From a virus, in the IMG/VR virus record IMGVR_UViG_3300035228_000846, positions 1 through 30,376 of that record: a stretch of 30,376 nucleotides of DNA. One strand, 5' to 3'. Under the pieces are notes generated by a model that was not told the DNA's origin, made no database searches, and saw nothing but the letters and a program-made list of their open reading frames with translations. How positions within the stretch are numbered: the stretch's first letter is position 1; every line of letters starts with the position of its first letter. This document shows, piece by piece, positions 1 to 25,540 of this stretch. The translations under genes were made by a program, and so were the position numbers.

Positions 1-3000
1 TTAACTCTCTTTAACCCAACTCCTGTGATATTAACTGTTCCACTTTGAGCACCACTACCACCTTGGAAAGCAGTAACTTGAATCGCATCAAACTTCACAC
101 CTGCCTTTTGGAATCTTGGTGGAATTGAGACTGTATGAGTTCCATTTCCTAGACCATGTTTAAGATAATTTCCAACATAAGTACCACCGACCAATACACC
201 TACACTAATTTTATCATCGATGACATCACCATCAACTGTTTTTGTATTAAAAGATCCAGAAATAGTTACTGTTATCGTATCAGTCTTTGATGAATCGGTC
301 ACCTGAAAACTTTGAACTCTAGGAACAAGTCCATTTTCAGTCGGATCTCCAGTATTATCAGCAGAAGTTATAGTTGTGGAGGGTAATGAATCTTGAATGA
401 TATCTGGTTCAGCAGGAAGAGTTGTGCTCATCAAAGAAGCGGTGGTCATACTTTCACTAATTTTTTTCCTGTTCCCAAGAAGAACTTTGAGTTTCCTTGC
501 CTTTTCTTTTGTGTTGGTTGCCTTCTTGACGTTTGCATCAATCTCAGGATTTCCTGTAGCAGGCATGAATTCTGCACTATGTGGATCTAACTTATCGTGC
601 TTATATTTCTGACCATATTTTGGATGATATCCATTCACTCTTTCTGGTGGTGGGTTATCAGGATGTATTGGTTTGATGTCTGGGTTATCAAGTGATGCAG
701 TTTTTATAGACTGAATTACTTTATCAACTTTGGTTTCTTTCTTTTGATACTTTTCATAAAGTTTTTCCATCTCTCTATCAAATTCTTGAGCCATTGCCTC
801 ATTAACTTTCTCTTGCCTTTCACGATCAGATCTCTCAATCAAAGTTGACCAATGATGTTCAGCAGCACCAACTAACTCAAGAACATGATTCTTTTTATCT
901 TGACTAGAAATTTCATTATATTTTTTATGACCTGCTTTCCATATAGCAGGATCAGGTTTGAAAGCCTTTGGACTTTCAATAGGTTTCATTAATTCAGCAC
1001 CAACAATTTTGTTATTTCTGCCAGTTGGTTTTACTTTAAATTTGGTTGGCATCTCCTTAACCTGAACTGGTTTCTTGATCTCACGAAGAATCCTTTTTTG
1101 TTTTGGAGTTACTATTTCTGTAACATTTTTTCTTTCTCTGTTCTTTAAGAACTTGGGTTTGTAACTTTCAGTCTTTTGATTTTTTCTATTTGTTCTCCAT
1201 TTTTTTGTTACTCTTGTCCTGTTGTTGCGTGCTTTTGTATAATTATCATATGCTCTATCAATTCTATCTGAATCTCCACTTGCCTCTGCATCTGTAGCTT
1301 CTTGTTCAGCATCTTGTAATTGTTGATCAGCATCTGCTACTTCTTGTTTTTCTGCCTCACTTGTGCCTTTCTCTCTTGCGTCTCCTTTTCTATCAGCCTC
1401 TGCTTTTTTTGCTGTCTCTACCGCATCTCTTTCTCTCTTGTAAGGATTGTCATAATCAGCAGAATCGCCAGTGCCAGCCGTACTACCAACATTAATTCCT
1501 GCCTGAATCAATAATGTAGTAACCGCAGCAGCACCAGCAGCAAGAGCAACTTGCCCAGCAGGTGTTGCAAGTAATCCAACGGCTACAGGAATGGCAGCAA
1601 TTTTTGCATACTCAGGTCCCATCTTAGAAAGATATGCTTTCAATCTTTTTTTATCTGCCTCTGACATACTACCATCTTGATTAACATAATCTTTAATGCC
1701 AAATGGATCATCATTGATATCCTCACCTTGATTAAATTCATTCCAATCTTTCATTACAGCAACAAAAAAGGGCCTGTAAAGTTCATCAATTTTGTCAGAG
1801 TATTCATCATTATATTTGTCACCAGTACCAAGATTATCTAATTTAGATTGTAATTCATCTCTTCTTTTTTTAGCATCTCTCGCGTCTTGTCTGCCTAGTT
1901 CTTGACTTCTATCGTCAAAAGCCCATGCTTCTTTTCTTAATTCATCAAACCCTCCAGGTCCTTCCCAGAAATTTATATACTCGGCAAATATTCTACCATA
2001 TTCTGCTTCTAGAAAGACTGCTTCATCATAGTCTTCTTTAGTATAATAGATATTTTGACCAGGTTGAGGAAAATTCTTATTAGAACGAATCTCCGTTAGT
2101 TTATAAGATCTTGAGACTATTTCATAAGCAACTCCAGTAAATTGTTCAGGTTGATGCCCATTATCTTTGGCATCCAAAATTGATAGAGGACCCACCCCAG
2201 GGTGGTATCTTCCATACTCATCTGGACCACTATTGTTATTAAAGAATCCAAGTCTTTCTCTTACACTATTATATTCACTAAAAGATTGTCCTGAACTTTT
2301 AAAATTTTGTTTAGTAAATTGTGCGCCCCAATTTACGCTACCCGCATAACGAACACCGTTTTCTGTCCAACCTCCACCTCCATATTCATTATAATTTTCA
2401 TCATGTGCATCTAGTTGACTCTGAATAGTTTCTCTTTCAGTTTCTCTTTCAGTTTCTTTATCCTCGTATTCTTGGTTTAGTTTATCAAGTTCATTTTGTG
2501 GAATGAGAGAATCTAATTTATCAAATGTATCATTTAACCAATCAGGATCAACTTCATAAATTAAATCCAAAGCTGATAATAGTTGATCACTATCCATAGA
2601 CCCTGGATTATCGATATTAAAATTAGTCAATCTTTTTGCTTCTGTTTCAGCATCCTTATCAATTTTTGCTAAATCAGAATCAGATAATCCTTTACCACCT
2701 TCCTTGGCAATATTATTTGCATCATTAGATGCTTTTTCTAATTGATCAGGAGATGAAGTTTTAGATACTTTATCAACATATCCATCAGCAGCTTCCATAC
2801 CACCAGAAAGACTTGGAACTGCTGTTGCTGTTTCCAACAAGTAGTTGTTTATTTGTTCTAGAAGTATCTTATTAGTATCATATTCATAAGAGTTATTAAA
2901 TTTTCTTGTTCCTCTTCTACTTCCAAATGATGGATTATTTTTAGGGTCATAGTTTCTAGATGAACTCTTATATTTCCCAGACCCAGGTCTTGATTGTGCC

Positions 3001-4067
3001 TTTACATCACTGTATGGTCCTCTAATATTATCTCCTCTAGTAAAGCTGCTCCCTTTTGATGGAGATGCTGCATTTGCTCTATTAATATCTCTCAAAACCT
3101 TATCCATTGGATCTTTTGGTTTAGCACCATCACCATATCTTGCTTTTGTCGGTCTATTTCCATATGTGATTTTGGGTTTTGGAGACCTCTTGAATGGATT
3201 AAGTCTACTAAGTGCTCTTCCAAATTTAGCAACATACCTTAATTTAGAACCAAGTATTGCTGCTCCTGCTGCTGAAGATGCTAGTTCTGGGAATAATAAT
3301 GCTACAACAGCGGCAATATCCAAACCCAACATTGCTGCATTCAAAATAGTCTGCATTAATTTATCATTCTTATCTTGTTCTTCTTCTTTTCTCTTCTCCC
3401 AAGGATATCCCTGAGATTCTGCATCACCCATAACATCAGGAGTGCGCTGTGTTTCTTCTCTTTCCGTTGCTTTTGTAGTTCCCGTAATTACAGCCAAATA
3501 TCTACCAAATCCATCTGCTGTGTTTGAAGGTGGACCAGGATAAAATGCTCTGTAATTTGGAGTATCATTATCAGCACCATTCAGTTTTGGGGTATTTTGA
3601 AAGAAAACTGCCTGTTCTAAAGTTAATTGACCATAACTAGTAAAATTTGATGATCCATCCCAACTTCCCAACTGACCAGTAATTCTGGCAAGGTTGACCA
3701 TTCTTCTATCAGACTGTCTGATGTATCCAATCTGAGTAAAGTTTCCCCAGGCATACCACATGGCTGACATGGGTCCAAGAATATAACTCGTATCTCCGGG
3801 TGGTTCTATAGTTAGAATAGTTCCATCACTGAGAAATAAACCCGTTGTATCATTTCCACTATATCCCTCTGACCCATCTCCATCCTGAGTAAAGTCTGCT
3901 GTTCTATCAACCTCGCCAGGAACTGTAACCGTGTTTATAATTGCAGGTTCAACAACATAAAGACCAGTAGTATTGTTTGTAGGCAATGCCTCAAGGATCT
4001 GAAGTTTCTCATCTACCTGAGAACTCTTCAGTACCTTAAGTGCTCTTGTATACCTATTCTTTGCCAT
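1..4067 (-). CDS. Giant virion structural protein (3' end outside window)
   Basis: The frame from ATG 4067 has no in-frame stop down to position 1, so at least 1355 codons are present and the C-terminus is missing. The protein starts MAKNRYTRALKVLK. Residues about 240-275 and 822-855 are long hydrophobic Ala/Leu/Val-rich stretches in an otherwise polar, Lys/Glu/Asp-rich, coiled-coil-prone chain. Late in the chain come basic stretches (KPKFLKNRERKN, KFKVKPTGRNNK), then the phrase DPHSAEFMPATGNPEID, and finally a Thr/Ser/Gly-rich part that looks like a beta-sandwich. From memory, such phrases recur in large virion structural proteins of T4-like cyanophages; that is recognition, not a search. 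A GATAAATA late promoter lies 20 nt upstream of the start, with AAGG about 7 nt before the ATG, which fits late expression. Exact virion role (tail, baseplate or internal protein) is unknown. Existence of the gene is certain; function is moderate. Confidence 0.85.
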   Translation of the reverse strand, partial: MAKNRYTRALKVLKSSQVDEKLQILEALPTNNTTGLYVVEPAIINTVTVPGEVDRTADFTQDGDGSEGYSGNDTTGLFLSDGTILTIEPPGDTSYILGPMSAMWYAWGNFTQIGYIRQSDRRMVNLARITGQLGSWDGSSNFTSYGQLTLEQAVFFQNTPKLNGADNDTPNYRAFYPGPPSNTADGFGRYLAVITGTTKATEREETQRTPDVMGDAESQGYPWEKRKEEEQDKNDKLMQTILNAAMLGLDIAAVVALLFPELASSAAGAAILGSKLRYVAKFGRALSRLNPFKRSPKPKITYGNRPTKARYGDGAKPKDPMDKVLRDINRANAASPSKGSSFTRGDNIRGPYSDVKAQSRPGSGKYKSSSRNYDPKNNPSFGSRRGTRKFNNSYEYDTNKILLEQINNYLLETATAVPSLSGGMEAADGYVDKVSKTSSPDQLEKASNDANNIAKEGGKGLSDSDLAKIDKDAETEAKRLTNFNIDNPGSMDSDQLLSALDLIYEVDPDWLNDTFDKLDSLIPQNELDKLNQEYEDKETERETERETIQSQLDAHDENYNEYGGGGWTENGVRYAGSVNWGAQFTKQNFKSSGQSFSEYNSVRERLGFFNNNSGPDEYGRYHPGVGPLSILDAKDNGHQPEQFTGVAYEIVSRSYKLTEIRSNKNFPQPGQNIYYTKEDYDEAVFLEAEYGRIFAEYINFWEGPGGFDELRKEAWAFDDRSQELGRQDARDAKKRRDELQSKLDNLGTGDKYNDEYSDKIDELYRPFFVAVMKDWNEFNQGEDINDDPFGIKDYVNQDGSMSEADKKRLKAYLSKMGPEYAKIAAIPVAVGLLATPAGQVALAAGAAAVTTLLIQAGINVGSTAGTGDSADYDNPYKRERDAVETAKKAEADRKGDAREKGTSEAEKQEVADADQQLQDAEQEATDAEASGDSDRIDRAYDNYTKARNNRTRVTKKWRTNRKNQKTESYKPKFLKNRERKNVTEIVTPKQKRILREIKKPVQVKEMPTKFKVKPTGRNNKIVGAELMKPIESPKAFKPDPAIWKAGHKKYNEISSQDKKNHVLELVGAAEHHWSTLIERSDRERQEKVNEAMAQEFDREMEKLYEKYQKKETKVDKVIQSIKTASLDNPDIKPIHPDNPPPERVNGYHPKYGQKYKHDKLDPHSAEFMPATGNPEIDANVKKATNTKEKARKLKVLLGNRKKISESMTTASLMSTTLPAEPDIIQDSLPSTTITSADNTGDPTENGLVPRVQSFQVTDSSKTDTITVTISGSFNTKTVDGDVIDDKISVGVLVGGTYVGNYLKHGLGNGTHTVSIPPRFQKAGVKFDAIQVTAFQGGSGAQSGTVNITGVGLKRV
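2427..2459 (-). repeat. 12-bp tandem repeat inside giant gene
   Basis: A 12-bp unit (agtttctctttc on the + strand) occurs twice in perfect tandem at 2427-2438 and 2439-2450, followed by a partial third copy. In the giant protein it encodes an ETER/ETER/ET run within a charged, probably helical segment. The unit is a multiple of three, so copy number changes keep the frame. Confidence 0.8.
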
Positions 4068-4076
4068 TACTTAGCC

Positions 4077-4607
4077 TTATATTGGAATATTTATCTGTTG
4101 TGTTGCATCTGAGTATTCTACGCATCCCTCAGGCCATCCAACAATAGTTATTCTATTATGAGTTGCACTAGTATTTACTACCCCAATACCATGAGGAACT
4201 TTTGGATTGATCCAAACAAACCGATTTGGTGCTGGTTCAATTTTGTCAACATCACAATTTTCAAACTTAAGATTACCTCCCCAAGAAGAATCCCATGTTG
4301 GATGAACATAATATACAAATCCACCAAAGTCAATATGGTATCCTGTTCCTGAAGATTCTCTGTCAACATTGGGTGGTAATGTATTTATGAAAGACCAACC
4401 ATCTATTGTACTATTCCAATGCTCTTGAAATAAATCAAGTTCAAAAAGTTTTTCTTTTATCCAACCAATAGTAGTCTTATATGGTTCATGAATATTTTCA
4501 ACAAACTCATCAGTATTCATATAATCACTCAAATTACTCTGAATCCAATTCCACTTATCCTCTGATAAGAAGTCATCTATAATAATTGCTGCTGTTCTTG
4601 TTGACAT
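4077..4607 (-). CDS. 2OG-Fe(II) oxygenase
   Basis: A 176-aa protein of the 2-oxoglutarate/Fe(II)-dependent dioxygenase superfamily (prolyl-4-hydroxylase-like double-stranded beta helix). The facial triad is visible: HID (H91, D93) in GYHIDFGG, and H139 in NPKVPHG. R152 in HNRITIVGW fits as the 2OG-binding Arg. The GGNLKF stretch before the PNRFVWI strand is typical. The substrate is unknown; cyanophages carry many such enzymes. ATG 4607 is chosen; an in-frame TTG at 4622 would add five residues and lies only 4 nt after the GGAGG arm of the hairpin. The gene follows regA across a terminator-like hairpin and a NATAAATA motif, so it probably begins the late unit that continues into the giant structural gene. 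Family is confident; substrate is not. Confidence 0.85.
   Translation of the reverse strand: MSTRTAAIIIDDFLSEDKWNWIQSNLSDYMNTDEFVENIHEPYKTTIGWIKEKLFELDLFQEHWNSTIDGWSFINTLPPNVDRESSGTGYHIDFGGFVYYVHPTWDSSWGGNLKFENCDVDKIEPAPNRFVWINPKVPHGIGVVNTSATHNRITIVGWPEGCVEYSDATQQINIPI
4088..4095 (-). promoter_or_regulatory. Late promoter motif (GATAAATA) for giant structural gene
   Basis: GATAAATA on the minus strand matches the NATAAATA late promoter box recognised by gp55-type sigma. Counting from the box puts +1 near 4082, giving a leader of about 15 nt that contains AAGG before the ATG at 4067. The box lies within the last codons of the oxygenase gene. Confidence 0.6.
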
Positions 4608-4608
4608 T

Positions 4609-4635
4609 AAAAAAGGAGGCAACTAACCTCCTTTT
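4609..4635 (-). terminator. Intrinsic terminator hairpin after regA, overlapping next gene's leader
   Basis: On the minus strand AAAAGGAGG pairs with CCTCCTTTT around a 7-nt loop (4611-4619 with 4627-4635) and is followed by six Ts (4609-4614). It lies directly after the regA stop and 1-2 nt before the oxygenase ATG. The 5' arm carries the only strong Shine-Dalgarno sequence (GGAGG) near that gene, so the hairpin may both end regA transcription and hide the ribosome site in read-through RNA. Confidence 0.7.
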
Positions 4636-8256: not shown

Positions 8257-8784
8257 TTATACCCAATCAGGTTTACGATCTGGGATACGAAGATAATTAT
8301 CGCATACCCATGGTTTAGATGCAATGTACATCTTGTATGCAGTAAAGATGTCAATACTTGCATCATACTTGAACTCATCAGGACCAGCAAAGACAAATGA
8401 TGTTGGGCCCTTGCCACTGCGACCTTGAGGGTCTGATGTAGGGAGTATCTCTTTTGCTGCTAGGAGAGTCTTCTGGCAGGTGTGGACCTTACCATAACGA
8501 GCAGTGTACTCATCACACATAGCAAGTCCATGAGCAAGGAGCCATTGCCAATTGGTCACAAACTCATTCGCCCACTTGGTACATGGATGATTACGAAATG
8601 CACCTTTCTCAGTGGCATAAGGAGTACCGTCTGCTTTAGGAAGAGTGCCAAACCCATGACCCCACTTGTCGGAGCATACAATAGCAAGCATCTGACAGGT
8701 CTCTAATGGCATCTTGACAATATGCTTGTCAGGAAGAACAACGGCAGACTTATATGGACTGAGGTCAGTTACAAAGATGTTCAT
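8257..8784 (-). CDS. Conserved phage hypothetical, DKH-x2-KM motif
   Basis: A 175-aa protein that starts MNIFVTDLSPYKSAVVLPDKHIVKMPLE and has QMLAIV, then HPCTKWANEF...NWQWLLAHGLAMCDEY, and ends IASKPWVCDNYLRIPDRKPDW. The DKH-x2-KM-x-LE-x2-QML block, conserved Trp residues and HP pair look like conserved functional residues of an enzyme. I know this block from other phage hypothetical proteins but cannot name a function. It overlaps the speD stop (ATGA) and ends 8 nt before gp44. A DNA- or nucleotide-related role would be only a guess from context. Confidence 0.8.
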   Translation of the reverse strand: MNIFVTDLSPYKSAVVLPDKHIVKMPLETCQMLAIVCSDKWGHGFGTLPKADGTPYATEKGAFRNHPCTKWANEFVTNWQWLLAHGLAMCDEYTARYGKVHTCQKTLLAAKEILPTSDPQGRSGKGPTSFVFAGPDEFKYDASIDIFTAYKMYIASKPWVCDNYLRIPDRKPDWV

Positions 8785-9116: not shown

Positions 9117-9805
9117 CAAGAAGAATAAGTAGAGTCTGGTTCCAATGCAATAAAGTACTTCAAATCATAATCACGACTAGTAAATCTAGAAAGAAGTTTC
9201 TGAGAAACAACTACTTCATAAGTTCCAGGGATAATTTTAATGTTCTCAACTTTAAAATTAAAACTAAACTCAGAGTTGGTCTCACCAACAATCTCACAAA
9301 ATTCATTAGATGTATCGTTCTTTTTATCACGAACCACTAGTTTAACAACACCATTCTCACCGACAGCAGAGAAATCTGGGAGGTGATAGACAGCAGCGGC
9401 TTTTAATAGTTTGTCTAACTGCTGCGTGTTAAGTTCAAAACAGACATCTTCACTAGGAAGAGAGATATCTTTATCAGGAGGAGTGACAATTACATTTGGA
9501 TCGGCAAAGAAGTACTTTGATCGAGAACGACCTTCTTTGATTATAACGTAACCATCATTTGTAAAATCTAAATCAGGACTCTGGTGAAGAGACAAACCAT
9601 TTAGGAATTGATTTAAATCGTAGATACCAAAATCTTGAGGGATCTCTTCATTAATGGTTACTTCAGCAAGAATATTCTTCATGACACTAATGGTACGAAG
9701 AGACCTACCTTTCTTAAAGAGAATAGACTGATTAATACCACTGAAATTTTTCAGTAGAGCCAAAGTCTGAACAGACAGTTTCATGGTTGTTTCGTTCAAT
9801 TTCAT
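9116..9805 (-). CDS. 45: Sliding clamp gp45
   Basis: A 229-aa homologue of T4 gp45 (228 aa), the trimeric clamp that tethers the polymerase to DNA and, in T4, also activates late transcription with gp33/gp55. Matches are LALLKNFSGINQSILFKKG near the start, FGIYDLNQFLNGLSL, and the ending YFIALEPDSTYSS (T4 ends VVALEADSTHDF). ATG 9805 overlaps the upstream stop (ATGA); an internal ATG at 9784 gives MKLSVQTLALLKNF, which aligns better with the T4 N-terminus, so the true start may be there. No strong Shine-Dalgarno separates the two. Confidence 0.96.
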   Translation of the reverse strand: MKLNETTMKLSVQTLALLKNFSGINQSILFKKGRSLRTISVMKNILAEVTINEEIPQDFGIYDLNQFLNGLSLHQSPDLDFTNDGYVIIKEGRSRSKYFFADPNVIVTPPDKDISLPSEDVCFELNTQQLDKLLKAAAVYHLPDFSAVGENGVVKLVVRDKKNDTSNEFCEIVGETNSEFSFNFKVENIKIIPGTYEVVVSQKLLSRFTSRDYDLKYFIALEPDSTYSS

Positions 9806-10242
9806 TGATTGTAAGTTTCACGTTTTGCATTCTTATTATTGAAATGCATTAGAAGAACAGCATAGTGTAGAATCTTCATAATGTCACGTCTGGAAGTGCC
9901 TTTCCTATCGTAGCGAGAGGCATACTTGAGGATATTGGATCGGCAGAATGCTTCACCATCACCACATGCTTCAATCAGATCAAGTGTTTGAATCTGATCA
10001 TCGCCCGCAGAATAGTGTTGATTATATGTTCCAATAATATATTCTTTTAGTTCTTTGAGGATTTCATCCTCACTATATTTGTAATTGCTAGTTTTAGGCA
10101 CAGTTAGGTCAAGTTTAAGTTCATCAATATGGTCAAAGGTAATACGATCCTCCCCGGAAGATCCAGAGCTCTGGTAACCAAGATTTAGTGTACCAGACTC
10201 TGAAGGAGTGAGATCGAATTTTAGTTTATCATCATTAGACAT
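9802..10242 (-). CDS. DUF3310 protein (T7 gp1.7 nucleotide kinase-like)
   Basis: A 146-aa protein whose C-terminal half holds the DUF3310 signature: NQHY (74-77), QTLDLIEACG (85-94), FCRSNILKYASRYDRK (99-114) and a following DIMKILHYAVLL helix. The family includes T7 gp1.7, an unusual dGMP/dTMP kinase, so a role in nucleotide supply is plausible. The N-terminal half is acidic and not recognised. ATG 10242 is chosen because the promoter just upstream would start RNA near 10275, downstream of the alternative ATG at 10281 (159 aa). First gene of the replication operon; its stop overlaps the gp45 start. Confidence 0.8.
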   Translation of the reverse strand: MSNDDKLKFDLTPSESGTLNLGYQSSGSSGEDRITFDHIDELKLDLTVPKTSNYKYSEDEILKELKEYIIGTYNQHYSAGDDQIQTLDLIEACGDGEAFCRSNILKYASRYDRKGTSRRDIMKILHYAVLLMHFNNKNAKRETYNQ

Positions 10243-10281
10243 GTTCAATTCATCAAATAGAAAGGACCAAGAGTTCACCAT

Positions 10282-10310
10282 ATTATATCAGTATTATGCC
10301 TCCAGGTCAA
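10282..10310 (-). promoter_or_regulatory. Strong sigma70-like promoter for replication operon
   Basis: On the minus strand TTGACC (10310-10305), a 17-bp spacer and TATAAT (10287-10282) form a near-consensus sigma70 promoter, with TG one base before the -10 (extended -10). The -35 lies in the last codons of the CobS-like gene. Predicted +1 is near 10275. It would drive DUF3310, gp45 and the following genes early in infection by host RNA polymerase. Confidence 0.75.
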
Positions 10311-11385
10311 CATAGAACTTTTCACCAGTAGCAGTGAGATCAAAGTCAGCATCAACCTTGTCATATAGTTCCAAGAATGCTTGCTTGGTTTCATCATCGA
10401 AACGATTGACACAAACACTAATAGCCTTTTCTTTATCATTGAAAATGCCATATGCTTTCACGATATGAACTAGACGACGAGTACTAATAATCTCCTCAAT
10501 ACCACCATCATAGAAGGTCTTACGGATAATGTCTGCCCAGTCAGCAAGACGCTTACAGAAGTTCTCATCATCACAAAGTTTGCTCAGAATTTTAGTTTCA
10601 ATAGAAACAGTTGGATACTCTTGCTCAAAGGTAACAGGGAATCGTTCTAGGAACGCTTCATTGAGCACGTTAGTTCCAATGAATCGGCCGTCGTCGCTAC
10701 CTTTACCCTTAGTGTTTGCTGTGGCGATGACGTTGAATCCACTTGCAGAGTCAACTCGCCGTCCGATTTTCTTAAGGAATACTCCTTTTCCTTCAAGGAT
10801 AGATTGGAGACAGAGAATTTTATTAGAGGCAAGGTCGATCTCGTCAAGGAGCAATACAGCTCCTCGTTCGAGTGCTTCCACGACTGGGCCATTGTGCCAG
10901 ACGGTATTGCCATCAACAAGGCGAAAACCGCCAATGAGATCATCTTCATCAGTTTCAATAGTAATGTTTACGCGGATGAGTTCACGTCCAAGTTGGGCGC
11001 AAGCTTGTTCAACGCTGAGCGTTTTACCGTTTCCAGAAAGACCCGTAATGAACGTAGGATAAAAAATATCGGACTTAATAATTTTTTTAATATCAGGGAA
11101 GTTACCAAAGCGGACGAAGGTATCATCTTTCGGGGGAATAAGATTTTGTTCAATAGCAGGCATAGCCGCAGGAGCACTATAAGATACTTCTAGTTCTTTG
11201 ACTGTTTTTTTCGTTACTTCTAAGTTCCATTTACCACGACCAACTTTATAATCGGTGAGTTTGTTAGTAACGGTTTGGTATGCACAGTCGTTCATGTTGC
11301 ACCATGCACGGACATCAGCAGCAGTGAACTCAACACCATAAAGATCTTGAAGTGAACTGATGATACCGCTTTTAGACAGACCCAT
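10294..11385 (-). CDS. cobS: CobS-like AAA+ ATPase (MoxR type)
   Basis: A 363-aa AAA+ ATPase of the MoxR/CobS group. Residues 1-70 look like a small DNA- or protein-binding domain; the ATPase follows with Walker A GLSGNGKT (115-122), the ETDEDDLIGGFRLVDGNTVWHNGP segment typical of CobS, Walker B LLLDEID (178-184), sensor 1 ATANT, and an arginine-finger region ERFPVTFEQEYP. Cyanophage homologues are usually called CobS, the ATPase subunit of aerobic cobaltochelatase. No CobN is visible here, while a CobT-like VWA protein is encoded just upstream, so a general MoxR-VWA remodelling machine is as likely as cobalamin synthesis. It has a terminator before it and a TATAAT about 22 nt before the ATG. 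Confidence 0.9.
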   Translation of the reverse strand: MGLSKSGIISSLQDLYGVEFTAADVRAWCNMNDCAYQTVTNKLTDYKVGRGKWNLEVTKKTVKELEVSYSAPAAMPAIEQNLIPPKDDTFVRFGNFPDIKKIIKSDIFYPTFITGLSGNGKTLSVEQACAQLGRELIRVNITIETDEDDLIGGFRLVDGNTVWHNGPVVEALERGAVLLLDEIDLASNKILCLQSILEGKGVFLKKIGRRVDSASGFNVIATANTKGKGSDDGRFIGTNVLNEAFLERFPVTFEQEYPTVSIETKILSKLCDDENFCKRLADWADIIRKTFYDGGIEEIISTRRLVHIVKAYGIFNDKEKAISVCVNRFDDETKQAFLELYDKVDADFDLTATGEKFYVDLEA

Positions 11386-11407
11386 TTGCTTTGTTTGAAC
11401 TTTAGTT

Positions 11408-11436
11408 ATTATAGACGAAAAAGGGAGGTTTTGAAC
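11408..11436 (-). promoter_or_regulatory. Possible promoter for the CobS-like gene
   Basis: TATAAT on the minus strand (11413-11408) lies 22 nt before the ATG at 11385. The best -35 (TTCAAA, 16-bp spacing) is weak and falls in the loop and arm of the preceding terminator hairpin. It makes sense functionally, because a gene directly after a terminator needs its own promoter. Confidence 0.4.
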
Positions 11437-11442
11437 CTCCCA
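11417..11442 (-). terminator. Intrinsic terminator after VWA/47-aa unit
   Basis: GGGAGGTT (11441-11434) pairs perfectly with AACCTCCC (11430-11423) around a 3-nt loop and is followed by TTTTT on the minus strand. It lies 5 nt after the stop of the 47-aa gene and separates the peptidase-VWA unit from the CobS-like gene. Confidence 0.85.
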
Positions 11443-11446
11443 CTAG

Positions 11447-11590
11447 TCACTTCTCAAACCGTCTATATTTGAATTTGAGTGCTTGAAGCATCCATGCTTG
11501 AGCAAGACTCTTTGGGCCTTCCTTAAGAACTTTTCTTATTTTAGGATCGCTCTCACATTGAAGTGCTATTTCCTTCCAATTCATCGTCAT
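11447..11590 (-). CDS. Small conserved hypothetical protein (47 aa)
   Basis: ATG 11590 to TGA 11447 encodes MTMNWKEIALQCESDPKI..., a 47-aa basic helical protein ending FKYRRFEK; starting at the second ATG (11584) gives 45 aa. The first ATG forms an ATGA overlap with the stop of the peptidase-VWA gene, and the stop is followed at once by a terminator, which supports a real gene. Function unknown. Confidence 0.7.
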   Translation of the reverse strand: MTMNWKEIALQCESDPKIRKVLKEGPKSLAQAWMLQALKFKYRRFEK

Positions 11591-13746
11591 GCAACCAGAG
11601 AAATAAATTCTCCAAGAACCTTTTTATTTAGTTTCTTTGTCTTTAAAGATTTTACAAAGGCAGATTTAATTTTTGCCTTTGTTGCATCTTCTTCCACTTC
11701 AAATTCAGAATCTGATGACAAAACGCTAGAAGAAATGCCAAAGTAAACATCATATCCAGAATTTTTTAGAGAAAAACTTTTTGTTTTTTTCCACTCATTC
11801 TGAATCTTTTCTTTTTTCTCAAAATAGTTAGAGTCCTTAAGAGGATCAAAATAGAGATTAAGGAATCGATTAATGTCTCTACCTTCAAGAACACGAATAC
11901 CAATGAAACTAGTATTAGGGAAATGATCTTTCAAGTTTTTCAAAAGAACATCAGTAAACTCAGAATAAGAGTATCCAAACTTATAAGTGACTCCCAATTT
12001 ACGGTCACGAAGGAAAGTTGCCTCAGGATTAACCCTACGACATCCCATGTAAGGTTCTGCATTAGGGCCACGTTCAACTATAACATGATATGGAACTGTA
12101 TTTGCTTCACCGTCTGTCAAGACAATACAATGAACTTTTTGAAGTCTATGCATCTTTTGAAAGTGTGGAATAATTTGATGAAGAGAAATGATTGCTTCAT
12201 TTAAAGGTGTCCCTGAAAGTGTCACCCTTGGAGGATAAGTATAACCACATGACCAAGAATTTTCAAAAGCACATGCAAGTCTCCAAACGTTGAGAAGTTG
12301 CTTTTCAATATTCTTGCCAGACATTTCACTAGTAATCATATTCATCATAGAGAATCTTTCATGAACAGAAAGGAGACCTTCTACTTTTTTATAGTGTGGT
12401 TTTACATCTGTAATAGTATGCTGTTCTAAAAGTTTATCAAAGTCATTCCTTTTCCACTCCCCAGTGAATGCATACACATTAAACGGAATTCCAACCTTCT
12501 TACAAAACCAAACAAGATTGAACAATTGTTTGCAGGTATCTTTTATAGTATATTGCATTGATCCAGACCAGTCTAAAACAAATAAAAGGCCATGATTTTT
12601 GCCATCAGGAAGAGTGGTTACTTTCTTGAACAAGTCTTCATTATATCGATAAGTGTGTAGTTTACTAGTATCAAGAACTCCAGTCCTACTAGTAGTAGCA
12701 CGAGCATAGGAGTCTGCAGATTTGCGACATTCAAATTCTTTGACAAGATAATTTACTTCCTTTTGAGCCGTCTGTTTGAATACTCTAAACTCAGTATCAA
12801 CTTTTTCATAGGGATTCTGTGCAGAATACTTCTCCTTCTGAAAACTAAACCACTCATCAATATAATCATGAATCTCAGAGTTATTAACTACAACAGTATC
12901 AAGATTGATTTTAGGAATTTCAACATAATTGTTTTCACATGTACCCCACCCAACTAAATCCTGAAGTTTATTTTCAAGAGAATCTGCGGTGCGAACATCT
13001 GGCGCATCATCATAATCCATTTCCGACGAAACACTATCAGTCTGCTTATTTTCTTCCTCCCGTCGCTCTGCTTCTTCCTGCATCTCCTCATGCGTCATTT
13101 CCCTATCACCTTGACTGGATCCTAAATCGGGAGATGATTCATCTTTAGGGATAGGAGGAAGGTTATCAAGTTGATCAAGATCTTTTATTTTTTGATCTCC
13201 ATCTTTTTCCTGTTTACAAAATTGATAAAGAGTTTCTGCTGCGATAGCAACATCTGCAAAAGTTTCACAAGCATTAATCAAGTCAACAATTTCCCTTTCT
13301 TTTTCAGAAAATTTAACCTGCACAAAATTACCAACCTTAGCATTGATGTTAATTTTATCAGCAAGATTATAAGTGTCTAAATCTTCACCTTGAATTTCAA
13401 AAAAATCTTCATCATTCAACTCTTGATATCCACGAAAGAAAGTCTTAGCAAGACCCATATACCTACGCTTCATCAATTTTTCAATACGACAGTCCTCAAC
13501 CACATTCACAAACTGATGAGGAATTCCTTTAGGAGGATCCTCGTCGGGTGTGTAGAGTGCATGGCCAACTTCATGTCCAACCAAAAGATCATATACAGTA
13601 TTACTTGCCTTCTCCCACATAGGAAGAGTCAACACACGAGTATGCACATTAAACTGAGCAGTCTTAACTCTTTTGTGCTCAACCACCAAATCCTCAGTAG
13701 CAAGCAGTTTGGCGAGTTGAGATTTGATTTCGTGAGAGACTGCCAT
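11587..13746 (-). CDS. HExxH metallopeptidase fused to VWA domain (CobT-like)
   Basis: A 719-aa protein with two domains. N-terminal: HEVGHALYT (H58-E59-x2-H62), a zinc-peptidase signature, followed by NVVEDCRIE (81-89), whose E84 could be the third zinc ligand. A Glu/Asp/Ser-rich linker covers about 180-255. From about 335 the sequence resembles CobT: ECRKSADSYARA..., TGVLDTSKLHTYRYN, then the VWA MIDAS DWSGS (392-396), with SGTPLNEAI (T513) and LTDGEAN (D545) completing the metal site. VWA proteins of this kind work with MoxR/CobS ATPases, and one is encoded next in line. The target (virion, host or cofactor) is unknown. The start lies inside the end of the basic 73-aa gene; the stop overlaps the 47-aa gene. 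Confidence 0.85.
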   Translation of the reverse strand: MAVSHEIKSQLAKLLATEDLVVEHKRVKTAQFNVHTRVLTLPMWEKASNTVYDLLVGHEVGHALYTPDEDPPKGIPHQFVNVVEDCRIEKLMKRRYMGLAKTFFRGYQELNDEDFFEIQGEDLDTYNLADKININAKVGNFVQVKFSEKEREIVDLINACETFADVAIAAETLYQFCKQEKDGDQKIKDLDQLDNLPPIPKDESSPDLGSSQGDREMTHEEMQEEAERREEENKQTDSVSSEMDYDDAPDVRTADSLENKLQDLVGWGTCENNYVEIPKINLDTVVVNNSEIHDYIDEWFSFQKEKYSAQNPYEKVDTEFRVFKQTAQKEVNYLVKEFECRKSADSYARATTSRTGVLDTSKLHTYRYNEDLFKKVTTLPDGKNHGLLFVLDWSGSMQYTIKDTCKQLFNLVWFCKKVGIPFNVYAFTGEWKRNDFDKLLEQHTITDVKPHYKKVEGLLSVHERFSMMNMITSEMSGKNIEKQLLNVWRLACAFENSWSCGYTYPPRVTLSGTPLNEAIISLHQIIPHFQKMHRLQKVHCIVLTDGEANTVPYHVIVERGPNAEPYMGCRRVNPEATFLRDRKLGVTYKFGYSYSEFTDVLLKNLKDHFPNTSFIGIRVLEGRDINRFLNLYFDPLKDSNYFEKKEKIQNEWKKTKSFSLKNSGYDVYFGISSSVLSSDSEFEVEEDATKAKIKSAFVKSLKTKKLNKKVLGEFISLVA

Positions 13747-13915
13747 GGGTTATGTTCGGTATGTAGCCACAATACAACAAAAGATCGCCTTTACGACGAC
13801 CCATGTGCTGCTTTTTAAACTGGCGCAATGCTTCACGCCTAGCTCTCATCGCTTGTGGTTTTAGTTTTCTTTTCTGCTCCTTCTTGGAGTGATGTTGCCA
13901 GTTAGGCGTTGTCAT
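13694..13915 (-). CDS. Small basic protein (73 aa), overlapping both neighbours
   Basis: A 73-aa protein packed with Lys/Arg in its first half (KKEQKRKLKPQAMRARREAL, then QFKKQHMGRRKGD), suggesting nucleic-acid binding. Its start overlaps the epimerase gene by 14 nt and its end runs 53 nt into the peptidase-VWA gene in another frame. The tail after about residue 56 is only the shifted reading of that gene. No family recognised; the long overlap lowers confidence. Confidence 0.55.
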   Translation of the reverse strand: MTTPNWQHHSKKEQKRKLKPQAMRARREALRQFKKQHMGRRKGDLLLYCGYIPNITHGSLSRNQISTRQTACY

Positions 13916-14633
13916 CGGTTGAAACAGTATCCAGAATATTTATTGTAGGAAACCATCCAATACTAGTCAAGATAGAGATATCAGCAATATTATCAATTGC
14001 TTCTCCAGGTGTAATCTCTTTGACTGGCAGATCACCTTGACCAAACTTTTCTGCCAGTTTTTTAACTGGGACAGATTCACCATATCCAATAGGGACCACT
14101 CCAGTAATATCACTTGAAGCAAGATACCTAATGGCACGACACACATCTTTTACATGAATCCAATCTCTCTTATGATTAGTGACATATGTTGCCTTTTTAT
14201 CTCTAAGAAGTCCATACATCATATTGGGACGAACATCCGGGCCATAGACTGTAGTAAACCTCATTCCCACAGAATTTGGTGGTGCCATCTGTTCATTAAC
14301 CCACTTGCTCATGGCATATGGATTTTCCCAATACTTATCATCAACAGCACTTGAAGATGCATACAAAAGACGAGTATTAGTCTCACCACACCAATCAAAA
14401 ATAGGTTTTGCTTTGACTACATTATTATTATAATATTCTTCTGGTTTTTCCAGACTCTCACGAATGTCTGCCCATGCTGCGAGATGTATGACAAGATCAT
14501 AATCTCCACCTTTAAATTCTGAGATATCATCGGGACGATCAAGTCCGTGAGCAAGATATCCTACCTGATCTCTCCAATCAGCAAAGACATATCTTCCAAT
14601 AAATCCTCTATGTCCAGTGACTAATACTTTCAT
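13902..14633 (-). CDS. NAD-dependent epimerase/dehydratase (extended SDR)
   Basis: A 243-aa extended short-chain dehydrogenase acting on nucleotide sugars. Visible: Rossmann motif TGHRGFIG (G7, G10, G13), D40s segment DLVIHLAAWADIRES, SSS (93-95), and the catalytic YAMSK (Y106, K110). The C-terminal substrate domain is short compared with typical 310-340-aa enzymes. ATG 14633 overlaps the stop of the UDP-glucose dehydrogenase gene (ATGA), so the two are translated together; the substrate may be UDP-glucuronate or a product of it (UDP-galacturonate or UDP-xylose), but this is inference from the pairing. Confidence 0.88.
   Translation of the reverse strand: MKVLVTGHRGFIGRYVFADWRDQVGYLAHGLDRPDDISEFKGGDYDLVIHLAAWADIRESLEKPEEYYNNNVVKAKPIFDWCGETNTRLLYASSSAVDDKYWENPYAMSKWVNEQMAPPNSVGMRFTTVYGPDVRPNMMYGLLRDKKATYVTNHKRDWIHVKDVCRAIRYLASSDITGVVPIGYGESVPVKKLAEKFGQGDLPVKEITPGEAIDNIADISILTSIGWFPTINILDTVSTDDNA
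13937..13944 (-). promoter_or_regulatory. Possible late promoter motif (AATAAATA)
   Basis: AATAAATA on the minus strand lies inside the epimerase gene, 21 nt before the ATG of the basic 73-aa protein. It would give late expression of that gene and perhaps of the peptidase-VWA gene. AT-rich coding sequence produces such words by chance, so support is weak. Confidence 0.25.
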
Positions 14634-15418
14634 GTTATAGGCCAATCAATTACTTTTCTAATTTGTTCATTGTATTTCCAGACTTCTTTCAGCATGTCTG
14701 CATTGACACCTTTAGATTCCATTTGGACTACCAGGGAGTTAAGATCTTTGGGGAAACAAGTTCCACCAAATCCACGATCATTGTCAATACCAGGGACTTG
14801 AGTGTGAGATCTTCCAATCCTACTATCAGCAATTACTGCATCACATACCATATCATAATTCATACCAGATGCTACGCAAAAGTCATACATCTTATTAAAG
14901 TATGCTACCTTACATGCAAGAAATGTATTAGAAAAATATTTAATAGCCTCACTTTCATCAGAGGAGACTAGGATATTATTAATTTTTGGAAAACATTTAG
15001 AGAAGATTTTTGCAAAGTCTCTACAAAGTTCAATATCTCCACCAATCACATTTCTCTCAGAGTTAGCAAAATCTTGAACCGCATTTCTTGCTGTTAGGAA
15101 CTCTGGATTATGAATTACATTATGACGTTCGGAATACTTTCTAGTTGTTCCAACTGGAACTGTAGATTTAATAATTAAAGTACCTGCTATGTAATCTGGA
15201 ACTGATTCAAAAAAATCATCCAAAATTGTCAAGTCACATTCACCACCAGACTTCATTGGGGTTGGAAGACAGACAAAAATATAATCACACTCCAATACTT
15301 CTAAAAGAGTATTAAAAGATTTATTTTTATCTACATCATAAACTTTAGTAGTTACCTTATCTCTAAAGTTTTGGTAGACTGCATTTCCAACAAATCCATT
15401 ACCAACAATACCAATCAT
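14630..15418 (-). CDS. UDP-glucose 6-dehydrogenase family protein (short)
   Basis: A 262-aa member of the UDP-glucose/GDP-mannose dehydrogenase family, which oxidises a nucleotide sugar to the uronate with two NAD. N-terminal Rossmann motif VGNGFVGNAV (G6, G8, G11), then IFVCLPTP, KSTVPVGTT, HNPEFLTARNA, and the catalytic cysteine in GFGGTCFPKD (C221). It ends soon after the central domain, so the C-terminal UDP-binding domain of full enzymes (about 400-450 aa) is missing; many phage versions share this short form. The start overlaps the gp46 stop (ATGA). It probably supplies sugar for surface glycan change or virion glycosylation together with the epimerase (inference). Confidence 0.9.
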   Translation of the reverse strand: MIGIVGNGFVGNAVYQNFRDKVTTKVYDVDKNKSFNTLLEVLECDYIFVCLPTPMKSGGECDLTILDDFFESVPDYIAGTLIIKSTVPVGTTRKYSERHNVIHNPEFLTARNAVQDFANSERNVIGGDIELCRDFAKIFSKCFPKINNILVSSDESEAIKYFSNTFLACKVAYFNKMYDFCVASGMNYDMVCDAVIADSRIGRSHTQVPGIDNDRGFGGTCFPKDLNSLVVQMESKGVNADMLKEVWKYNEQIRKVIDWPIT

Positions 15419-24889: not shown

Positions 24890-25540
24890 TTACAATGATT
24901 TTATGAACTCATTGAATAAATTTAACTTATGTTCATCTAAACGTCTTTGATCAACCAAAGTGTTTATTCTTCTTTCAACACTCTCCGCAAATTTTTCACG
25001 AAGAATGCCACCATCCCAAATCCAATCTTTACCTTCCATGATACCCTGAACAAAGGCATCAGGTGCAGATGGATCTGCAACAATATCGGCAGCTGTCGCT
25101 AACATAAAATCTTCACCGACTTCCATAACTCCCTCTTTATTTTGGGAGATAGAACCAATACCACGGGATGAAACTCCGAGAGTGACACCTTCTTTTAAAA
25201 GTGACTCTGCAATCTTACCCATTGGTGTAGAAAGAATCTGTGCTTTTCCAATAAAATTATTACCTTCTTGCTTAAGAGAAACAATCTTATGCGAAACTCT
25301 ATCGAGATTGACGGTAGGACCATCGGGGTGACCCAATTCCCCAAGAGCACGACCTTTAGAAATATAGTTCTCAGCATATCTCGCAACTTCTTTCTGCATC
25401 GTTGGAAGACGATACATTCTTTGATTGCGATTTACCTTTTCAGTTTGCAGAAAAGGACCCTCAATAAAGAGTTTCTTTTCGGCACCCCTACCTTCGGTGA
25501 TAACCTTTACTGATTCAATTTCTTCTCTAATGAGTTTCAT
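24890..25540 (-). CDS. 21: Prohead core protease gp21
   Basis: A 216-aa serine protease (T4 gp21, 212 aa; family S80-type prohead protease), which digests the scaffold and trims capsid proteins. The conserved segments are visible: PFLQTEKVNRNQRMY, GELGHPDG with H71, GVTLGVSSRG with S124/S125, and ADIVADPSAPDAFV; H71 and one of the serines are the likely catalytic His and Ser, with an Asp of the last block as third residue (inference). It lies between the 187-aa protein and gp22, as expected. Confidence 0.95.
   Translation of the reverse strand: MKLIREEIESVKVITEGRGAEKKLFIEGPFLQTEKVNRNQRMYRLPTMQKEVARYAENYISKGRALGELGHPDGPTVNLDRVSHKIVSLKQEGNNFIGKAQILSTPMGKIAESLLKEGVTLGVSSRGIGSISQNKEGVMEVGEDFMLATAADIVADPSAPDAFVQGIMEGKDWIWDGGILREKFAESVERRINTLVDQRRLDEHKLNLFNEFIKSL

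Follow-up and report, generated by a model that had tools for sequence, protein, structure and literature searches.

Nearly all T4-like cyanophages carry two adjoining genes that are usually labelled "vitamin B12 synthesis" and "peptidase". The former, cobS, belongs to the core gene set of marine T4-like cyanophages (Sullivan et al. 2010, PMC3037559); in ecology it is counted among cobalamin auxiliary metabolic genes and doubles as a marker of communities. Published readings of such pairs contradict each other. Liu et al. (2021, PMC8651126) described viral cobST, regarded cyanophage cobT as "mistakenly annotated as a peptidase" and proposed hijacking of host CobN. Iyer et al. (2021, PMC7824862) described a pair of MoxR and metallopeptidase-vWA proteins in group 2.2 jumbo phages (ASV44729/ASV44728) and proposed a role in virion assembly. 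Here we analyse the pair encoded by IMG/VR virus record IMGVR_UViG_3300035228_000846, a fragment of a Kyanoviridae-type cyanophage, whose whole stretch of 30,376 nucleotides is referred to as the window. The evidence obtained fits neither published reading well. We favour a remodelling machine that consists of an AAA+ ATPase and a partner with a metal-ion-dependent adhesion site (MIDAS) and carries a working metallopeptidase. This reading is ranked over cobaltochelatase, virion assembly and other metal insertion; taken by itself, we give it an even chance of being correct.

Both genes lie on the minus strand. The CobT-like protein of 719 residues (11587..13746) matches the full-length profile of PHROG 459 (2.3e-260). 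The neighbouring CobS/MoxR-type AAA+ ATPase of 363 residues (10294..11385) matches that of PHROG 249 (2.1e-135) as well as AAA_5 (1.9e-18). PHROGs labels these families "peptidase" and, for cyanophage cobS, "porphyrin biosynthesis". The single HExxH motif of the larger protein is HEVGH at residues 58-62 (13561..13575, minus), with H58 and H62 as putative zinc ligands and E59 as the putative catalytic residue. NVVED at residues 81-85 (13492..13506, minus) contains the putative third ligand, E84. The VWA half (residues about 330-719; 11590..12759, minus) holds a complete MIDAS: D392, S394 and S396 lie in DWSGS (392-396), T513 in LSGTPL and D545 in TDG. Foldseek relates this half to NorD and to the human MDN1-MIDAS VWA domain. 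The ATPase contains Walker A (GLSGNGKT at 115) and Walker B (LLLDE at 178), and its PDB matches comprise CobS (1.6e-17) and NorQ (4.6e-15). The MoxR-VWA layout, in which an AAA+ gene with both Walker motifs adjoins a VWA gene with a complete MIDAS, is thus present. Coordinates, H58-E59-x2-H62, N81-V-V-E84-D85, the MIDAS residues and the adjoining CobS/MoxR-type gene were all re-found exactly as in the original prediction, which had been made from the sequence alone. Its proposal that a peptidase-type domain is joined to a CobT-like VWA domain with MIDAS and served by such an ATPase, in a remodelling machine distinct from cobaltochelatase, gains support from the analysis below. The pair can hardly be called little-described, however, since the architecture was published for jumbo phages (PMC7824862), cyanophage "cobST" has been discussed (PMC8651126) and PHROG 459 was already named a peptidase.

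HExxH by itself is weak evidence, because the motif appears in 4% of shuffles of the 719-residue protein; combined with a downstream glutamate and DxSxS, it appears in 0.6%. An earlier deep scan used HEVGHAL as its search word and was therefore open to ascertainment bias. For this reason, IMG/VR was searched with the VWA half alone, so that the motif was not part of the selection. HExxH and NxxEDxR were found in all 72 loci in which the N-terminus is present (72/72). A chance motif is thereby rejected, and the free variation of H58, E59 and H62 that would speak against a peptidase is not seen in these cyanophages. Alignment A1 includes sequences of as little as 23% identity, and in it H58, E59, H62, E84, D85, D392, S394, S396 and D545 are invariant. 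The two genes also co-occur across cyanophages. Of the 72 loci with space for it, 65 have the AAA+ gene within 2.5 kb downstream; in five of the other seven it overlaps or lies slightly beyond that distance. The pair occurs in about 460 cyanophage records. Among 50,697 phage records, compared group by group and not record by record, the numbers of VWA and AAA+ proteins are identical in each cyanophage group (365 Synechococcus, 61 Cyanophage, 24 Prochlorococcus). The two genes form a genuine module under strong conservation, one that was known as a pair before this analysis.

No Pfam family recognises the N-terminal domain of the window protein (residues 1-190; 13177..13746, minus) in a Pfam search; membership in DUF2201_N was rejected, as PF13203 gives no match in the window. 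AlphaFold2 (predicted local distance difference test score 90, predicted template modelling score 0.85) places a helix and three short strands ahead of a helix at 49-65 with HExxH and a helix at 77-95 with E84. A helix with HExxH followed by a helix with a glutamate is the layout of small gluzincins, and H58, E59, H62 and E84 are found in this arrangement, as in metallopeptidases of the clan MA(E)-like kind. The domain is therefore predicted, on the basis of the model, to have a minigluzincin layout. In a Foldseek search against PDB, selecase, a minigluzincin, ranked first (probability 0.97, E 0.11) and ArdC next, with another metallopeptidase, ZMPSTE24 and LTA4H lower in the list; the families at the top are zincins, but all these matches are weak (E >= 0.1).

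To specify the relationship to CobT, profiles of N-terminal domains were compared with hhalign. The cyanophage domain matches those of phage-plasmids, roseophages and an IncC plasmid (E 3e-12, probability 97.6), and these in turn match true CobT (E 2e-7, probability 93.6). Direct comparison of the cyanophage domain with true CobT (E=0.0095, probability 4%) is unconvincing alone; only the two-step link convinces. PF06213 (CobT) matches the N-terminal domains of the phage-plasmid PhiR41 (9e-27) and the roseophage CRP-810 (2e-15), but neither PF06213 nor PF11775 matches the window protein or is among the families matched by 43 relatives. None of the four full-length true CobTs examined contains HExxH, and true CobT is a relative without this motif. 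Given the PF06213 matches and profile links, both published names, "CobT" and "peptidase", have a basis; by sequence comparison, the 719-residue protein is CobT-like and peptidase-like.

This homology counts in favour of the view that the "peptidase" label is a mistake and that the pair completes a cobaltochelatase with host CobN, raising cobalamin for replication (PMC8651126). CobN is over its cut-off in 18 of 21 cyanobacterial genomes, true CobS in none of 292 (0/292), and true CobT is found in none of 291 (0/291; this sample is taken as cyanobacterial because its genomes are the same as in the 292-genome draw, though the locus of the centre genome is titled Tatlockia). Since CobN is there without CobS and CobT, the phage pair could in principle substitute. 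Yet the AAA+ protein scores 58 bits with TIGR01650 (CobS), whose curated cut-off is 558.55 bits, PF06213 misses the cyanophage protein, and cyanophages strictly keep an HExxH that the true CobTs lack. Moreover, the pair also occurs in SAR11 phages and E. coli phage-plasmids, and its neighbours are replication genes, not corrin genes. Neither SAR11 nor E. coli is known to synthesise the corrin ring. We consider this explanation unlikely, and the vitamin B12 label of the pair is poorly supported. The original prediction had also argued from the missing CobN. That argument fails: the record is a fragment, so absence of CobN from 30 kb means nothing, and the hosts carry the gene. As to origin, a search for the phage-type HExxH-VWA protein in the 292 cyanobacterial genomes gave one 50-residue match with stops and no credible match. 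With true CobS and CobT lacking as well, present-day cyanobacterial hosts of the kinds sampled are not the source of the pair.

In the literature, cyanophage cobS has been called a "cobalamin synthetase" acquired from the host (PMC9983427), and the "final step" in cobalamin synthesis has been assigned to its product (PMC2984593, PMC5083919); the latter, a review, also states that it is not actually homologous to bacterial cobS. Chelatase cobS/cobT appear to be confused with the unrelated nucleotide-loop cobS/cobT in PMC2984593, PMC9983427, PMC11288001 and the record of phage Cyrano. Our literature searches returned nothing on SXT/IncC cobST and no cyanophage transcriptome naming cobS. As a separate observation, in the control Caulobacter vibrioides CobT exceeds its cut-off and CobS is matched, with no CobN match, which hints that CobST can exist without CobN.

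Occurrence of HExxH-VWA proteins with an AAA+ partner is not limited to cyanophages. The combination was also detected in pelagiphages HTVC008M and Mosig, Ochrobactrum phage OC, SSU5/PhiR41-type phage-plasmids, Rhizobium and Roseobacter phages, Zobellviridae T5S1, ICP2 and GodonK. These occurrences are more distant; hosts include Vibrio and Gordonia, and carriers include enterobacterial phage-plasmids and IncC plasmids. A close PhiR41-type copy is present in 219 of 5,426 complete E. coli genomes, in every case on plasmids. On the IncC plasmid pNDM-US, the HExxH-VWA and CobS-like AAA+ genes, six genes apart, flank ssb-bet-exo and a DUF3150 gene, which make up a recombination module of this conjugative plasmid. 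HExxH is also present in the Reynauld protein, with no CobS-like gene among its annotated neighbours. Staphylococcus phage relatives (Staph1N) were not counted: the AAA+ protein matches weakly, and the neighbours of 682 and 281 residues lack HExxH and the DxSGS MIDAS.

HExxH is kept in 15 of 19 mobile-element proteins compared, including very divergent ones. In one distant clade (Pseudomonas hairong, Acinetobacter p5768, Stenotrophomonas ANB28/BUCTxx99) both histidines are lost, with SEIAK, QEVAK or REVST at this position, and the VWA and AAA+ genes and the glutamate are retained. In a small FastTree phylogeny of the VWA half, true CobT falls inside the set, beside the roseophage/T5S1/IncC group (support 0.97), and HExxH is missing in CobT and in the hairong, p5768, ANB28 and BUCTxx99 clade. 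Because the tree was rooted by midpoint and several supports are low, the direction of HExxH change is a suggestion, not a result. A bolder extension of the favoured reading, which we put forward as possible but doubtful, is that cyanophage "cobS" is non-metabolic. It would drive an AAA+/MIDAS protease of mobile elements whose task is to remove or process replication proteins or proteins bound to DNA, and which is common to phages, phage-plasmids and IncC plasmids; cellular CobT would have arisen within this family by loss of the peptidase site and been reused for cobalt insertion.

In most annotated lineages examined, the pair sits among DNA replication and recombination genes. The cyanophage order gp46-pair-gp45 is the same in the window and in PHROG 459/249 relatives. 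In Ochrobactrum phage OC the pair is near gp46 and the sliding clamp, in T5S1 near polymerase and primase/helicase, and in E. coli, Salmonella, Rhizobium, Pseudomonas, Stenotrophomonas and Acinetobacter elements near DNA polymerase III alpha, which is frequently accompanied by ligase, primase or recombinase. The late-type promoter motif NWTAAATA lies close upstream of gp22, gp20, gp19 and a fourth gene of the structural region. No enrichment of it was detected upstream of the pair (6/135 and 3/122; a rough estimate puts the chance level in such AT-rich DNA at about the same). Replication context and lack of late promoters suggest that the pair acts at an early or middle stage, in DNA metabolism or takeover rather than in virion assembly.

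The same data bear on the proposal for jumbo phages that the pair remodels and trims structural proteins in virion assembly or maturation (Iyer et al. 2021, PMC7824862). Proteases are common in phage maturation, and tail assembly of the archaeal virus ATV uses a MoxR-VWA pair, one without a peptidase (PMC7824862). However, late promoters mark structural genes and not the pair, the window encodes a separate head maturation protease, gp21 (24890-25540), and a relative exists in IncC plasmids, elements that form no virions. In the S-SM1 proteome text, cobS is listed in the cyanophage core separately from its virion proteins T4-GC 15 and 190 (PMC3037559), which also speaks against this role. We thus regard virion assembly as quite unlikely. 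Of the target "host or virion" named in the original prediction, the virion half is disfavoured by gene context and promoters.

A further explanation concerns insertion of a metal cofactor into a phage or host enzyme, as in NorQD/CoxDE, with the HExxH site holding metal for delivery or structure and cutting no peptide. NorD and NorQ are among the VWA and AAA+ relatives, and several MoxR-VWA pairs act in metal-cofactor insertion. On the other hand, E59, a catalytic base needless for metal binding, is as invariant as the ligands, and no common metalloenzyme was seen among shared neighbours. We find this the least probable of the explanations weighed. Anti-phage defence was rejected, as there was no PADLOC match.

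The protease-bearing remodeller could operate as follows. The ATPase ring and its adaptor would form one machine, the adaptor being a fusion of a MIDAS-type VWA domain with a minigluzincin-type metallopeptidase domain. If it works like midasin, NorQD and CobST, the VWA domain would bind to the ATPase ring and offer its MIDAS metal to an acidic residue of the target protein. ATP hydrolysis would then pull on or remodel the target, and the putative zinc site (H58, H62, E84, with E59 as catalytic residue) would cut it. The machine most likely acts during replication or takeover; DNA replication, recombination or takeover would be its phase of action, and not virion building or cobalamin synthesis. 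Several points weigh against this reading. Zinc binding and proteolysis enter it by inference, and Foldseek E-values of the N-terminal domain are weak (best 0.11, at probability 0.97). The clade without both histidines indicates that cutting is dispensable there and hence not required in all members. Metal insertion is the task of CobT, a close analogue, so that a MoxR-VWA pair may act on a metal cofactor. The neighbourhood suggests a phase of action, not a target, and in ICP2, GodonK and Reynauld it is mostly unannotated.

Further features surround the pair. An open reading frame of 47 residues (11447..11590, minus), identified by translation, overlaps the stop of the VWA gene (ATGA). It has a homologue in S-SM2, and homologues lie within 1.5 kb in 45 of 139 loci; it is an optional third member of the module. 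Upstream of the AAA+ gene, a terminator-like hairpin and a sigma-70-like promoter (11408..11441, minus) were recognised by consensus matches only. The next gene after the AAA+ gene (9802..10281, minus) matches the profile of DUF3310 (PHROG 480); S-SM2 and P-SSM4 have T4-GC 152 there. The window contains structural genes, UvsW/UvsY, gp55, gp47, gp46, two nucleotide-sugar genes, the pair, the DUF3310 gene, gp45, speD, gp44 and regA. The nucleotide-sugar genes, for UDP-glucose dehydrogenase and NAD-dependent epimerase (13902-15418, minus), lie between gp46 and the pair and are absent there in S-SM2 and P-SSM4. The product of 4077-4622 (minus) belongs to PHROG 274, labelled "DNA endonuclease V", but Pfam identifies it as a 2OG-Fe(II) oxygenase (8.8e-7). 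The pyrimidine-dimer glycosylase domain lies in 8257-8784 instead, and the PHROG 274 label is probably an error. An open reading frame of 1355 residues (3-4067, minus) runs past the window edge and has no match in PHROG or Pfam.

If the pair is indeed a protease-bearing remodeller, the cobS part of viral metabolism surveys needs revision. The pair itself is not new. What this analysis adds is the unbiased test of conservation, the reading as a minigluzincin, the link to CobT with HExxH loss, the counts of host genes, and the evidence from promoters and gene context.

Comparison with known systems places the locus as follows. CobS/CobT cobaltochelatase shares the combination of AAA+ protein and VWA adaptor, and the N-terminal domain of CobT is linked through phage-plasmid relatives. 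It differs in that CobT lacks HExxH, the phage AAA+ protein is far below the CobS cut-off, and no CobN is annotated in the neighbourhoods examined. Midasin (MDN1/Rea1) and NorQD, both recovered as PDB matches, resemble the pair in having an AAA+ motor with a MIDAS VWA domain that engages and remodels a client; neither is known to carry a peptidase domain in the same polypeptide. DUF2201_N, a putative metallopeptidase domain ahead of a VWA-like domain, represents a similar idea. Selecase and ArdC are weak fold matches of the N-terminal domain (E 0.1 at about 10% identity; selecase probability 0.97). The jumbo-phage pair has the same architecture and pairing, the likeness being drawn from its published description. 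Finally, the cyanophage pair of PHROG 459 and PHROG 249 consists of the same two families in the same order and in the same gp46-gp45 context, and the window pair is a member of it, with no difference of substance.

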